The notes under the pieces were generated by a model. That model was given only the letters and a program-made list of their open reading frames with translations. It made no database searches and was not told where the DNA came from. From Cognaticolwellia sediminilitoris (GTDB lineage: Bacteria; Pseudomonadota; Gammaproteobacteria; Enterobacterales; Alteromonadaceae): DNA of 42,315 bases. Position 1 is the stretch's first letter. The number at the start of each line of letters is the position of its first letter. The stretch is taken from assembly GCA_002104535.1 (NCBI GenBank), contig NBOG01000017.1, forward strand, positions 1-42,315, in the 5' to 3' direction. Position numbers and translations under genes: made by a program. This document shows, piece after piece, positions 11,547-42,180 of this stretch.

Positions 11547-11567
11547 TTTTATATGCTTAATATATAA

Positions 11568-11707
11568 AAGTAGGGTCAGATACACATTAAATTTCAGCAG
11601 CGTTTTTCTCATAGTAAATAACCCGATGACCCGTTCTTACGAAGTTTTTGGATGCTAGTTTTAAAAATCAAATGAACAATTTTGTTAATGTGTACCTGAC
11701 CCTATTT
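11568..11707. repeat. REPIN-like element, copy 1
   Basis: This 140-bp unit begins AGTAGGGTCAGATACACATT and ends with the inverted form TTAATGTGTACCTGACCCTA. The inside near the left end (CAGCAGCGTTTTTC, TAAATAACCCG) resembles copy 2. It lies between the gcv terminator and a sugar dehydrogenase gene, ending 51 bp ahead of that start. The frame of the dehydrogenase stays open into the repeat, but that part is not a plausible protein start. Confidence 0.85.
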
Positions 11708-11758
11708 ATTACAACCACTAAACCGAAATATTACTCGATTTCATCAGGAATAACGATT

Positions 11759-12937: not shown

Positions 12938-12951
12938 AGCGGGGCATATTA

Positions 12952-13099
12952 AAAGTAGGGTCAGATACACATTAATTTTTTAGCAGCGTTTTTCGCAAGG
13001 TAAACATCCCGTGAAGCCTTGTCATACCTGGCTATATGGGATTGTATTCAATAAGTGAAATGAGTAAATCTTGTTAATGTGTATCTGACCCTACTTTTT
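12952..13099. repeat. REPIN-like element, copy 2
   Basis: A 148-bp unit with inverted ends GGGTCAGATACACATTAA and TTAATGTGTATCTGACCC. The interior holds AGCAGCGTTTTTCGCAAGG near the left end and ATTCAATAAGTGAAATGAG near the right, shared in part with copies 1 and 3. It lies between the dehydrogenase and the following membrane-protein gene. Confidence 0.87.
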
Positions 13100-14664: not shown

Positions 14665-14778
14665 GTAGATATTAAAGCTCCGTATAAATTTTATAGACAG
14701 GGAAATTATTTGAGACGTCTAATTCAAGCAAGATAAGGCATAAGCGCTTTTTATTCAACTGACATGGATATTAATAAT

Positions 14779-14922
14779 AGTAGGGTCAGATACACATTAA
14801 ATTTTTCCCGGGTTATTTAGGCAAGTAAACAACCCGCAGAGTTATGTTCTATCGGGCCTAAGGATATTTATTCAAGGAATGAAATGGCTAAAAATTTTTA
14901 ATGTGTATCTGACCCTACTTTT
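14779..14922. repeat. REPIN-like element, copy 3
   Basis: A 144-bp unit with inverted ends GGGTCAGATACACATTAA and TTAATGTGTATCTGACCC. The interior (GGCAAGTAAACAACCCG and TATTCAAGGAATGAAATGG) is recognisably related to copy 2, so the whole unit and not only its ends has been copied. It stands in the 342-bp gap between the esterase and the next gene. Confidence 0.87.
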
Positions 14923-14938
14923 TTTATTAGCGAAAAGC

Positions 14939-20293: not shown

Positions 20294-20340
20294 AGTAGGG
20301 TCAGGTACACATTATAATAAGTAGGGTCAGGTACACATTA
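20294..20340 (+). repeat. Two tandem left ends of the REPIN-like repeat
   Basis: GGGTCAGGTACACATTA occurs twice in the same direction (20297-20313 and 20324-20340), separated by 10 bases. No inverted partner follows within 150 bp; instead the sequence runs directly into the GTAG-hairpin mosaic. Confidence 0.85.
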
Positions 20341-20728
20341 TTGGGGGCATATAGCCCGACAAAACCTAAATATATGAGTGTGTTGGCCTAAAGACCAACC
20401 TACAAAAGAAAAGGTGCGTTCTTCGAGGGGCGAACAAATTCGCCTGTTAAAAGTAGGTTGGCGTTGGTTTATGGTGGATGACGTATTGGCTGAGAATGTG
20501 ATATTAGTTTTTTGGCGACTGAAGTCGCCCCTACAGTTTAATGTCACGCCTTATAGCGCGTTTGATTTTGTTCTCTTGTAGGTCGGGTTTTAGCCCGATA
20601 AAACCCAAATATATGAGTGTGTTGGCCTAAAGACCAACCTACAAAAGAAAAGGTGCGTTTTTCGTAGGGGCGACTTCAGTCGCCGTTTTGTTTTATTTAA
20701 TTGTTCGAGTAGGCGAGTTTACTCGCCT
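20341..20728. repeat. Mosaic of GTAG-headed hairpins (REP/BIME-like)
   Basis: Hairpins with a GTAG head and different stems lie together: minus-strand GTAGGTTGGTCTTTAGGCCA (20382-20403 and 20621-20642), a GGGGCGA/TCGCC type (20427-20444, 20514-20534, 20664-20684), GTAGGTCGGGTTTTAGCCCG (20578-20598) and GTAGGCGAGTTTACTCGCC (20709-20727). The block around 20352-20444 is repeated at about 20592-20684 with few changes, so a compound unit has been duplicated. ORFs across it (20338-20547, 20378-20581) are repeat sequence, not genes. Confidence 0.8.
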
Positions 20729-30489: not shown

Positions 30490-30538
30490 TTGCTGCTCAA
30501 TTTTCCACAAAGTATTTAATGTGTATCTGACCCCACTT
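30490..30538. repeat. Half copy of the REPIN-like repeat
   Basis: The end TTAATGTGTATCTGACCCCA is present at 30516-30535, with an interior-like segment CGGGATTTATTTGCTGCTCA just before it that resembles, reversed, the left interior of copy 2. The opposite end is missing. The repeat ends 18 bases before a start codon (30557). Confidence 0.75.
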
Positions 30539-40043: not shown

Positions 40044-40601
40044 ATGGATTCAAGCGAACAACTTAACAAACAGCTAAGCAAAGAAGAGCTGAGAACCACT
40101 AAACCGACTCGAGAAGAGTACTTAGGTAAGCCGAAAATACCGCTGGTATTGATATTAGATAATGTCACCAATAGCTATAATATCGGTTCATTTATTCGTT
40201 TGGCAGATGCCTTTGCTATCGAGAAAATTATTGTTTGTGGCGCACTGACCATTTCAGATAAAAAAATGCGTAAAGCGTCAAGAAATGAAGCAAAGTGGGT
40301 AAGTGTAGAATACAGTGATAGCACAACTTTAAGCATACAAGGCTTGATTGATAAAGGCTATGCAATATACGGCGTAGAGCTATGCCGTGATTCGGTTGAT
40401 TATAAAACAGTAAACTATTCAGAACCTTGCGCATTAGTATTAGGGAATGAGCGCAAGGGCGTCAGTGAAGCAGCACTACAATTAACCAATCAACAAATCC
40501 ATATTTCCATGTACGGCATGGGCAACTCGTTAAATGTCTCAACCGCTGGCGCAATCGTCTTAGCAGAATGTGCCAGCCAAATCCGCCAAGCCAAGCAATA
40601 A
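40044..40601 (+). CDS. TrmH-family (SpoU) RNA 2'-O-methyltransferase
   Basis: A cytoplasmic SPOUT-class methyltransferase of 185 residues. The RNA-methylase motif 1 is LDNVTNSYNIGSFIRLADAF (about 39-57), and motifs 2 and 3 are CALVLGNERKGVSEAAL and ISMYGMGNSLNVSTAGAIVL, forming the trefoil-knot SAM site. The short N-terminal extension is polar. The substrate (tRNA or rRNA ribose) is not decided by the sequence, so no symbol is given. The stop is immediately followed by two left ends of the REPIN-like repeat at 40602. Confidence 0.9.
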   Translation: MDSSEQLNKQLSKEELRTTKPTREEYLGKPKIPLVLILDNVTNSYNIGSFIRLADAFAIEKIIVCGALTISDKKMRKASRNEAKWVSVEYSDSTTLSIQGLIDKGYAIYGVELCRDSVDYKTVNYSEPCALVLGNERKGVSEAALQLTNQQIHISMYGMGNSLNVSTAGAIVLAECASQIRQAKQ

Positions 40602-40654
40602 AAAGTGGGGTCAGATACACATTAATTTTAAAAGTGGGGTCAGATACACATTAA
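40602..40654 (+). repeat. Two tandem left ends of the REPIN-like repeat
   Basis: GGGGTCAGATACACATTAA occurs at 40607-40625 and 40636-40654 in the same direction. The first copy abuts the stop of the TrmH-family gene. The pair stands about 95 bp ahead of the transposase start and marks the upstream edge of the transposase-carrying unit. Confidence 0.88.
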
Positions 40655-40749
40655 AGTTTATCGTCTTTAATCCTATTATATAGGGCTAATTATACTTTAA
40701 AGATTCTTGTTCTATACTTAACGAAATTTAAATAATAAGGATATTATTT

Positions 40750-41463
40750 ATGGCTCGCCTACCCAGAATACAGCTAACCGATATACCACAACATATAATT
40801 CAACGAGGAAATAATCGCAATTTGTGCTTTGCAGATGAGCAAGATTTTGCTGCTTACGCACATTGGTTAACCGAGTACTCTGTTAAACATTACGTAGATA
40901 TTCATGCTTGGGTTTTCATGACTAATCATGTTCATTTACTTTGTACACCGCGCAAGTCAAACGCTATCAGTTTGATGATGCAAAGTTTAGGTCGAAGGTA
41001 TGTGCAGTATTTCAATTATAAGTATCGAAGATCTGGCACTTTATGGGAAGGAAGGTTTAAATCGTGTTTAATTGAAGACGTTTCATATTTATTGCAAGTA
41101 TATAAATATATTGAATTAAATCCGGTTAGGGCGAATATGGTTGCTGAACCATCTGAATACTTTTGGTCAAGTTATCAAATTAATGCCTTGGGGAAGCAAT
41201 CTGAATTATGTACACCTCATCCTGTATATATTGAACTAGGTACTAATTCACTAGTGCGCCAAGAGACATATCAGTCTTTATTTAAGTATCAAGTTGCCCC
41301 CAAACTAATTGAAGATATCAGAGTGTCATTAAATAAAGGTTTAGCACTGGGAAGTGAATGTTTTAAGTCTGAAGTAGAGCAATCAAGCGGACGAAGAGTA
41401 AGGGGAGCAAAACTCGGCAGACCGTTAGGCTCATGTAAAAAAGTAGGGTCAGATACACATTAA
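40750..41463 (+). CDS. REP-associated tyrosine transposase (RAYT), IS200-like
   Basis: A Y1 transposase of the HUH superfamily that nicks and joins single-stranded DNA at REP hairpins. The 237-residue protein begins MARLPRIQLTDIPQHIIQRG. It has the metal-binding HUH motif HVH at 60-62 (FMTNHVHLLCTP), YFNYKYRRSGTLWEGRFKS, and the catalytic tyrosine in YKYIELNPVRA (Y120). The C-terminal region (about 180-230) is polar and rich in basic residues. The last six codons and the stop (VGSDTH, then TAA) are read from the left terminal repeat at 41441-41463, so the repeat defines the C-terminus. AAGGATATT lies ahead of the ATG. The repeat is the probable cognate substrate, inferred from position. Confidence 0.9.
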   Translation: MARLPRIQLTDIPQHIIQRGNNRNLCFADEQDFAAYAHWLTEYSVKHYVDIHAWVFMTNHVHLLCTPRKSNAISLMMQSLGRRYVQYFNYKYRRSGTLWEGRFKSCLIEDVSYLLQVYKYIELNPVRANMVAEPSEYFWSSYQINALGKQSELCTPHPVYIELGTNSLVRQETYQSLFKYQVAPKLIEDIRVSLNKGLALGSECFKSEVEQSSGRRVRGAKLGRPLGSCKKVGSDTH

Positions 41464-41582
41464 TTGATTCCTATAACTTTGATGATTGTATAAGCTGAGA
41501 TATAGGCTTAAAAGCTTGGCCATTATGCTGGTTTTTGAGTATTTCAGGCATCTGCAATTTAATGTGTACCTGACCCCACTTT
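41441..41582. repeat. REPIN-like element fused to the RAYT stop, copy 4
   Basis: Left end GGGTCAGATACACATTAA at 41446-41463 and inverted right end TTAATGTGTACCTGACCCCA around 41559-41578 bound a 142-bp unit, the same length class as copies 1-3. Its interior shows little resemblance to them. The RAYT reading frame ends inside its left end. Confidence 0.85.
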
Positions 41583-41606
41583 TTTTGCCCTACTTTATTT
41601 TAGACG

Positions 41607-41636
41607 AAAAAAAAACCTGCTTAATCAGCAGGTTTC
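41607..41636 (-). terminator. Rho-independent terminator, unit 1 of the tRNA-Asn array
   Basis: On the minus strand AAACCTGC and GCAGGTTT form an 8-bp stem with a 7-base loop, followed by a run of about nine T. It lies directly after the damaged tRNA at 41643. Confidence 0.85.
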
Positions 41637-41642
41637 TTAATG

Positions 41643-41730
41643 TGGCTCCTCAACCTGACTTGAACCAGGGGCAAACGCCTGTTTTTTTATAAGAGTACAT
41701 TCCGTTGCTCTACCGGCAGAGCTACTAAAT
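41643..41730 (-). pseudogene. Damaged tRNA-Asn copy, fused to the repeat
   Basis: The 3' half (CCA, T arm) resembles tRNA-Asn but has lost one base in the T stem (CTGACTT for CTGGACTT). The anticodon loop is replaced by an inserted segment of about 16 extra bases containing CTCTTATAAAAAAAC, the D arm has TACCGGCAG, and the 5' acceptor strand is absent: sequence runs into the repeat at 41731. It should not be a functional tRNA. Confidence 0.82.
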
Positions 41731-41755
41731 TTAATGTGTACCTGACCCTACTTTA
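41731..41755 (-). repeat. Single end of the REPIN-like repeat
   Basis: TTAATGTGTACCTGACCC at 41731-41748 is followed by TACTTTATTTTGGACG. No inverted partner stands at the usual 140 bp; the repeat is between two damaged tRNA copies. Confidence 0.85.
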
Positions 41756-41764
41756 TTTTGGACG

Positions 41765-41793
41765 AAAAAAAACCTGCTTAATAAGCAGGTTTC
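41765..41793 (-). terminator. Rho-independent terminator, unit 2 of the tRNA-Asn array
   Basis: The same stem AAACCTGC/GCAGGTTT as in unit 1, with the loop changed by one base and a T-run of about eight on the minus strand. Confidence 0.85.
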
Positions 41794-41799
41794 TTAATG

Positions 41800-41889
41800 T
41801 GGCTCCTCAACCTGGACTTGAACTAGGGGCAAACGCCTGTTTTTTTTATAAGAGTACAGTCCGTTGCTCTACCAACTGAGATACTAAAT
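41800..41889 (-). pseudogene. Damaged tRNA-Asn copy with anticodon-loop insertion
   Basis: The T arm and D arm are nearly those of tRNA-Asn, but the anticodon loop carries the same inserted block (ACTCTTATAAAAAAAACAGG) as the copy at 41643. The 5' acceptor strand (TCCTCAAT) is replaced by TAGTATCTC next to the repeat at 41890. It cannot form the acceptor stem and should be non-functional. Confidence 0.85.
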
Positions 41890-41914
41890 TTAATGTGTAC
41901 CTGACCCCACTTTT
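41890..41914 (-). repeat. Single end of the REPIN-like repeat
   Basis: TTAATGTGTACCTGACCCCA at 41890-41909 abuts the damaged tRNA. A short remnant CCCCACTTTATTTTGG follows at 41919, as if two repeat ends had been joined. Confidence 0.82.
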
Positions 41915-41936
41915 TTTGCCCCACTTTATTTTGGAC

Positions 41937-41966
41937 GAAAAAAAACCTGCTTAATAAGCAGGTTTC
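41937..41966 (-). terminator. Rho-independent terminator of the intact tRNA-Asn
   Basis: Stem AAACCTGC/GCAGGTTT (41943-41950 with 41958-41965) and a T-run on the minus strand, 8 bases beyond the CCA end of the tRNA at 41973. Confidence 0.88.
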
Positions 41967-41972
41967 TTAATG

Positions 41973-42048
41973 TGGCTCCTCAACCTGGACTTGAACCAGG
42001 GACAAACGGATTAACAGTCCGTTGCTCTACCAACTGAGCTATTGAGGA
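41973..42048 (-). tRNA. tRNA-Asn (GTT)
   Basis: The 76-nt cloverleaf includes an encoded CCA. The acceptor stem is TCCTCAA/TTGAGGA, the D arm GCTCAGTTGGTAGAGC, the anticodon stem-loop ACGGA-CTGTTAA-TCCGT (anticodon GTT) and the T arm CCTGG-TTCAAGT-CCAGG. All stems pair. Transcription is on the minus strand after the identical gene at 42105. Confidence 0.97.
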
Positions 42049-42104: not shown

Positions 42105-42180
42105 TGGCTCCTCAACCTGGACTTGAACCAGGGACAAACGGATTAACAGTCCGTTGCTCTACCAACTGAGCTATTGAGGA
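42105..42180 (-). tRNA. tRNA-Asn (GTT)
   Basis: Identical in sequence to the tRNA at 41973-42048, with encoded CCA and full stems, separated from it by 56 bp that contain no repeat end. The two are likely cotranscribed. Confidence 0.97.

Follow-up and report, generated by a model that had tools for sequence, protein, structure and literature searches.

The transposase gene and its terminal repeats

The window, that is, the whole stretch of 42,315 nucleotides analyzed here, carries close to its right edge a gene for a RAYT-type transposase, which is preceded by a SpoU-family methyltransferase gene and followed by tRNA-Asn genes (Table 1). The predicted protein matches the Pfam family Y1_Tnp (E = 4.6e-12) and the NCBIfam model REP_Tyr_transpos (E = 5.6e-18), the latter with 65.2 bits, below the cut-off of 80; its score against transpos_IS200 is 16.9 bits, the cut-off being 55. 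Residues H60, H62, Y120, N124, and P125 are invariant in all 18 aligned proteins, two of which belong to the orthologous group of the window's gene, and the C-terminal residues past the GRP motif differ freely among the aligned relatives. The closest named relative is a protein of Colwellia polaris (85%). No helix-turn-helix family was recovered when two orthologues were compared with Pfam up to an E-value of 10, a search in which the HMMER filters drop most weak matches.

Table 1 Features of the transposase locus and further copies of its terminal repeat in the window
Feature	Positions	Strand	Remarks
SpoU-family methyltransferase gene, left neighbor of the RAYT gene	40044-40601	+	Pfam PF00588, E = 2.2e-32; C-termini compared across 14 genomes
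Forward end, copy 1 (reference)	40600-40627	+	Adjoins rearrangement junction
Forward end, copy 2	40629-40656	+	89% to reference copy
RAYT/TIRYT transposase ORF	40750-41463	+	237 aa; HUH H60-V-H62; Y120-IEL-N124-P125
Non-autonomous unit, MITE/REPIN-like, subfamily A, 147 bp	41438-41584	.	Hairpin-forming
Forward end covering the 3′ terminus of the ORF; left arm of the attached unit	41438-41465	+	96% to 40600-40627
Right (inverted) end of the 3′ unit and of the RAYT element	41559-41585	-	
Extra right end	41731-41757	-	In tandem with terminator and tRNA-Asn-like fragment
Extra right end	41890-41916	-	Terminator and tRNA-Asn-like fragment context
Two intact tRNA-Asn genes, conserved right neighbor	41973-42048, 42105-42180	-	Third gene beyond the window
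Dispersed unit, subfamily B	11565-11710	.	Same ends, different interior
Dispersed unit, subfamily B	12950-13099	.	
Dispersed unit, subfamily B	14775-14923	.	
Two tandem forward ends	20298-20341	+	26-bp period
Single end	30516-30533	-	

The gene stands between inverted copies of a repeat whose ends are about 25 bp long and share the core GGGTCAG. Two forward copies precede the gene, where GGGGTCAG is present at 40607-40614 and 40636-40643, and the outermost of them is entered by the stop codon of the SpoU gene (40599-40601). The third forward copy of this repeat (core GGGTCAGATACACATTAA), with AGGGTCAG at 41445-41452, covers the 3′ end of the transposase ORF: the translation ends in GSCKKVGSDTH, and the last six sense codons (GTA GGG TCA GAT ACA CAT) together with the TAA stop are repeat sequence. 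This bears out the initial annotation, which was made from the sequence alone and had read the frame as ending in VGSDTH-stop inside the repeat (the ORF closes within positions 41438-41463 of the forward copy), had placed two tandem left ends upstream of the gene, and had described a RAYT-type transposase flanked by its own repeat in inverted orientation and joined to a non-autonomous unit. The attached unit, given there as about 142 bp (41441-41582), is a full unit with slightly wider bounds. Its arms pair over 27 nt (41437-41463 with 41559-41585, 93%), and the ends of the whole are likewise inverted (40600-40628 with 41556-41584; 29 nt, 93%), although position 40602 is not upheld as the true left end, the outermost copy adjoining a rearrangement junction.

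Folded as one DNA strand, the 147-nt unit forms a long hairpin (z = -4.6; none of 200 shuffled sequences folded as well), whereas no hairpin forms from a single end (40600-40630; -0.5 kcal/mol, z = 0.31). GTAG or GTGG precedes GGTCAG in many ends, the hairpin being absent in the one single end folded. The repeat is far from confined to the gene: the window contains 15 matches to GGGTCAGRTACACATTAA with at most three mismatches, for 0.07 expected (0 of 100 shuffled sequences reached 15), and the genome has 61 copies with at most two mismatches, compared with none for a reversed-pattern control. Eight of the nine further copies in the window lie outside the listed predicted ORFs, and the remaining one (11685-11702) overlaps the TTG-started 5′ part of a predicted ORF. 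To the right of the element (41589-41972), tRNA-Asn-like fragments with altered anticodon arms, some devoid of the 5′ part, alternate with terminators next to the intact tRNA-Asn genes, and some abut a repeat end; such fragments are also seen at L106-L108 and at several of the loci L164-L173, including genomes without the RAYT gene.

One locus, four orthologues, and a probable rearrangement

An orthologue of the RAYT gene (at least 85% identity) is present in 4 of 17 genomes, namely, the window's own genome (G000), G005, G006, and G007. All four reading frames are open, and in each genome the gene is single-copy and occupies the same place beside the tRNA-Asn array, which is followed by a MATE gene (MatE, E = 9.3e-51), with the same right flank throughout. 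In G005, G006, and G007, a gene for an M28 peptidase lies to the left, giving the order peptidase-RAYT-tRNA-Asn in three of the four. The forward end at 40629-40656 aligns with the left end of the RAYT element in these three genomes, where it lies 112-114 bp before the ATG; the copy at 40600 is probably not the element's own end. In G006 (locus L108), a partial tandem copy of the element, comprising the left end and the first codons, occupies the stretch from about 115 to 280 bp ahead of the RAYT start.

The initial annotation had suggested that the stretch 40602-41582, with two left ends, gene, and attached unit, moves as one composite transposon. Its inverted outer ends (93% complementary) and the tandem partial copy just upstream of the full element in G006 speak for such movement, but there is one copy per genome, at one locus and with the same right flank in all four genomes, and it is the inner left end that the orthologues have in common, the outermost one standing at a rearrangement junction; we consider movement of the whole highly improbable. 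The literature applies the term domesticated to a gene kept once and at a fixed site, which is the situation found here; this does not contradict the view, given in the initial annotation, that RAYTs are usually single-copy, domesticated genes.

Ten genomes devoid of the orthologue have a peptidase-to-tRNA-Asn interval readable whole, a set that excludes G008 and G016 (cut at the array) and G015 (no peptidase match). The GGGTCAG-TACAC repeat is absent from all ten intervals; a scan for GGGTC[AT]G, which would miss decayed elements, gave no match in nine of them and one, in other context, in G002, and the intervals are too diverged for an exact empty site. Partial UvrB and SpoU trees set G000 apart from G005-G007 (the MATE tree leaves G000 unresolved), and hence the distribution of the gene is patchy: it may be old and have been lost several times or may have moved between lineages long ago.

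A unit stands at the 3′ border of the gene in all four orthologues, and the way in which the protein ends there varies. VGSDTH-stop terminates the proteins of G000 and G007, whereas the other two orthologues lack VGSDTH. In G005, the tail reads VKPDTHKYINK-stop, in which VKPDTH matches a decayed copy of the repeat and the TAG stop belongs to a second, intact copy; in G006, the protein ends in NQEI-stop ahead of the repeat, whose GGGTCAG core starts 25 bp past the stop codon. An ancestral VGSDTH would be a reading based on the one decayed copy of G005. Given this variation at the 3′ border, the tail is free to change, the C-termini past GRP being variable as well, and we read VGSDTH as tolerated rather than selected.

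The left side of the locus has a separate history in the window's genome, where the neighbor of the RAYT gene is SpoU instead of the peptidase. SpoU is here parted from the gene of a GTP-binding protein (Pfam GTP-bdg_N/M, MMR_HSR1), which we take to be HflX-like and which faces SpoU in G008 (DNA identity 79%). In G000, the GTPase gene is found on contig C26 next to a unit of the same subfamily as the one attached to the RAYT gene (93021-93169), followed by a peptidase gene. This peptidase shares 89-93% identity with its counterparts in eight genomes; in seven of these (G002, G003, G009-G013), the peptidase gene precedes the tRNA-Asn array. Its identity to the different peptidase that occupies this place in G005-G007 and others is 51-53%. 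A repeat copy is thus present at each of the two new joints. The simplest reading would be one exchange between two repeat copies in G000, which would also explain why a second left end stands at 40600. The ancestral SpoU-GTPase adjacency is suggested by G008, the examined flanks of the other genomes giving no such match. False joints in the draft assembly could in principle imitate the pattern, against which weighs the identity of just 78% between the two subfamily A units of G000.

Ends, units, and copy numbers across relatives

To place the element among its relatives, we collected 68 RAYT loci, which, after removal of 13 broken or short genes and 4 duplicates, left 51 distinct intact genes, the window's included. 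Inverted ends were taken to be present where GGGTCAG occurs in forward orientation no more than 320 bp upstream and in inverted orientation at -75 to +260 relative to the stop codon; 37 of the 51 genes have them, one or both being missing within the stretch examined at the other 14. Of 25 positions outside the core, 18.1 agree between the two arms of one element and 9.9 between arms of different elements (0 of 5000 permutations as high; the best-matching pair per element was used, so that the own-arm figure is somewhat raised for elements with several arms), and protein distance correlates with end distance (Mantel r = 0.74; 0 of 5000 permutations). The ends therefore covary with the enzyme, a relationship that PMC2817692 describes for REPs and RAYTs.

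In 5 of the 51 genes, a forward copy overlaps the ORF at its 3′ end: the window's gene and those of G007 and G005, which form one orthologous group, a gene of G192, and one of Aliidiomarina. In 4 of the 51, the stop codon is overlapped by, or lies within 6 bp of, an inverted end. The G192 gene belongs to another family and ends in GRPKVGSDQT-stop; in Aliidiomarina, GSDT stands inside a longer tail. The G192 gene is flanked on either side by a 47-bp unit, with four more 47-bp units and three longer pairs (130-143 bp) elsewhere. These 47-bp units (L267-L280) have nearly identical arms, constant length, and differing 11-base spacers, so that the spacers seem not to have shared the history of the arms. 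Two other arrangements were seen in passing. At L088 (G008:C2:44172-45510), there is a tandem pair of RAYT genes, of which the first contains an internal stop; the same forward end precedes each, and a single right end was seen, past the second gene. The window's genome also encodes a second Y1 transposase, of 150 aa (G000:C26:259699-260151; L033 1200-1652), and no copy of the window's repeat was found around it within the 3 kb examined.

From the stretches examined, which cover part of all copies, we read 39 paired units in five genomes (G000, G002, G005, G006, G007). Most of them sort by inspection into three subfamilies that have the ends in common and little else: A (about 131 bp from one outer GGG core to the other), which includes the RAYT-linked unit; B (128-134 bp); and C (about 96 bp). 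The remaining units are unclassed and include very short pairs of 39-40 bp. Direct repeats of at least 3 bp border 11 of the 39 units (one repeat of 12 bp, the others of 3-5 bp), 28 having none, compared with 15.0 expected when flanks are re-paired at random. Being no commoner than expected, they give no sign of target duplication, and for Y1 enzymes none is expected. Two DNA searches yielded no exact empty site of a single unit, the matches ending at gene borders or in multicopy sequence. As a separate observation, an insertion sequence (about 1.33 kb) whose transposase matches Pfam DDE_Tnp_1 (E = 1.3e-10) interrupts the repeat's end at L114 449-1782 (G006:C1:2567648-2568981), with GTATCTGACCC on either side. 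Among the matches listed in G006, there are six more near-full copies (97-100%); the element meets the repeat at the identical base in L110 and L111 and in L117 adjoins a unit with a similar end, so that it may target this repeat.

The initial annotation saw in the locus a model for the origin of the whole family. The corresponding explanation would be that the gene acquired a forward end at its 3′ border and that this end, the tail, and the right end together founded subfamily A. Linked A units occur in all four orthologues and dispersed A units were read in three of these four genomes, and G192 presents the same layout with an unrelated interior, its 47-bp units lying on both sides of the gene and at four other places. 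However, the dispersed units resemble one another at least as much as they resemble the linked unit: the identity of the linked unit to the 8 dispersed A units of G006 is 87.0%, compared with 88.7% among themselves (one or more A-like units, such as L110 1015-1161, being omitted), and 76.8% compared with 79.4% in G005 (4 units). These values favor neither master nor latecomer status of the linked unit, and the idea that it is the recent source of the dispersed units is rejected. The subfamily A tree (16 units, without the window's own unit and at least the L110 unit of G006) is poorly supported, and subfamilies B and C, which have just the ends in common, would need another source. We regard this origin of the miniatures as unlikely.

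The number of repeats follows the RAYT gene, as the initial annotation anticipated, with one partial counterexample. Exact copies of GGGTCAGRTACACWTTAA number 54, 23, 30, and 9 in the four orthologue genomes (9 in G007), compared with 0 (eight genomes), 1 (three), or 2 (one) in 12 of the other 13; the exception is G002 with 15 copies, whose RAYT is just 50% identical and has other ends. More than two copies are thus found in 4 of 4 genomes with the orthologue and 1 of 13 without it (Fisher p = 0.002, uncorrected for relatedness; since the genomes are few and related, the p-values overstate independence). Copies also gather near the gene. With the element's own copies omitted, 5 of 32 copy clusters of G000 lie on the 46.8-kb contig of the RAYT (1.2% of the genome; 0.39 expected, p = 4e-5) and 3 of 13 in G005 on the RAYT's contig (0.46 expected, p = 0.009); G006 has one array within 50 kb of the gene, and G007 has none within 50 kb beyond the element's own. 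It could be argued that gene and repeats are an old, inert relic, the repeats being spread by something else or no longer spreading, given the 15 copies in G002 without an orthologue and the fact that no movement was observed. We find this very unlikely in view of the four open reading frames, the invariant catalytic residues, a copy number that follows the orthologue, the clustering near the gene in two of the four genomes, and the covariation of ends and enzyme.

Relation to known systems and interpretation

The element of the window is a TIRtron with a TIRYT transposase and, as such, a clear and largely ordinary member of an already described transposase group. It presents the corresponding features: a RAYT-like HUH/Y1 transposase, inverted GGGGWSAS ends, and a non-palindromic single end. 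Identity with IS200/IS605 elements, which have subterminal hairpins and lack terminal inverted repeats, is rejected in view of the clear inverted ends and a score far below the cut-off, and a RAYT of GTAG REPs (subclass 2.2 and others) in view of the one single end folded, which has no palindrome. According to the accessible parts of PMC3733652 (Di Nocera et al. 2013), TIRtrons carry a RAYT-like Y1 transposase between long terminal inverted repeats unrelated to GTAG REPs, with the GGGGWSAS motif and genomic repeats that occur as singles, dimers, and clusters; enzyme type, inverted ends, motif, and copy arrangements are all those of the window's family. The legends of its Figures 8 and 9 give flanking sequences that overlap the gene 5′ or 3′, so a terminal repeat overlapping the gene is already in print, and cases like the window's may be among those figures. 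In the window, by comparison, the overlapping copy is the forward (left-type) end of a complete extra unit, and four orthologues can be compared.

By motif, ends, and layout, rather than by the profiles of that study, the window's RAYT probably belongs to subclass 2.1 of PMC6006769 (Quentin et al. 2018), or group 1 in the RAYT groups of Bertels et al. 2017 as cited in PMC6006769 and PMC8049555. Subclass 2.1, which in the view of its authors probably corresponds to TIRYTs, is there characterized by a Y- - -NP signature, a long C-terminal extension, and low copy number, all shared by the window's RAYT; a C-terminal helix-turn-helix is also reported, and Pfam recognizes none in the window's protein (with most weak matches dropped by the filters). 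PMC2817692 (Nunvar et al. 2010), in its accessible part, describes REP-rayt-REP arrangements with inverted repeats that covary with the transposase gene and gather near it in three marine gammaproteobacteria, as well as four cases of a rayt 3′ end drawn into a BIME, and repeat ends that lie very near or just past the stop codon. The window's family resembles these in its inverted flanking repeats, covariation, gathering near the gene, and involvement of the 3′ end, but the REPs are palindromic singly and the window's ends are not. The same difference holds for REPINs, described in the accessible text of PMC3116915 (Bertels and Rainey 2011) as two inverted ends with a less conserved spacer and a single-strand hairpin; layout and predicted hairpin of the window's unit fit this description, a further difference being that copies number tens at most in the genomes counted. 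Among the titles and abstract beginnings of the RAYT, REPIN, TIRYT, and MITE literature, we met no description of this Colwellia repeat family, and the accessible parts of the cited papers contain no proof of TIRYT mobility. New in the present data are the four-genome history, the clustering of copies near the gene, the second case in another family (G192, with V-G-S-D-Q-T-stop and a 47-bp unit), and the rearrangement with repeat copies at both joints.

Taken together, the data are, in our judgment, probably best explained by a TIRtron with a single-copy TIRYT enclosed by inverted, non-palindromic ends, which would act in trans and which bears a family unit at its 3′ border, with a presumably tolerated C-terminal tail and a probable scar at 40600. 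The enzyme would act on paired ends of single-stranded DNA folded as a hairpin, cutting and rejoining without target duplication and mostly near its own gene; the position and strand of cleavage are those expected by analogy with the enzyme family. Before the split of the four lineages, a family unit would have reached the 3′ border of the gene, either by landing on it or through an end gained by the gene's own tail, and the ORF would have extended into the left arm of the unit, the sequence of which in this frame reads V-G-S-D-T-H-stop. The tail would then be a tolerated by-product and not a working part, and the outermost left end in the window's genome would be what an exchange between repeat copies later left behind.

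A bolder proposal is that the transposase tends to set an extra forward end exactly where its own gene ends, in the G-S-D frame, making the tail a separate short mobile unit. The pattern is seen in the window's lineage, in G192 of another family, and, inside a longer tail, in Aliidiomarina. We consider such a tendency quite unlikely; if it were true, the element would itself generate its miniatures, and this would be recorded in the C-terminus of the protein.

TIRYTs are a little-studied branch of RAYTs, and the genus examined here provides four orthologues that share a locus, ten sites that can be read in genomes lacking the element, dozens of units with the same ends, and RAYTs with other ends, which together make the specificity and cleavage of ends directly testable. 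The rearrangement of the window's genome suggests that these small repeats can mark rearrangement breakpoints. Finally, the data suggest that repeat sequence may form the C-terminus of a RAYT by accident, so that caution is needed in reading function into such tails.
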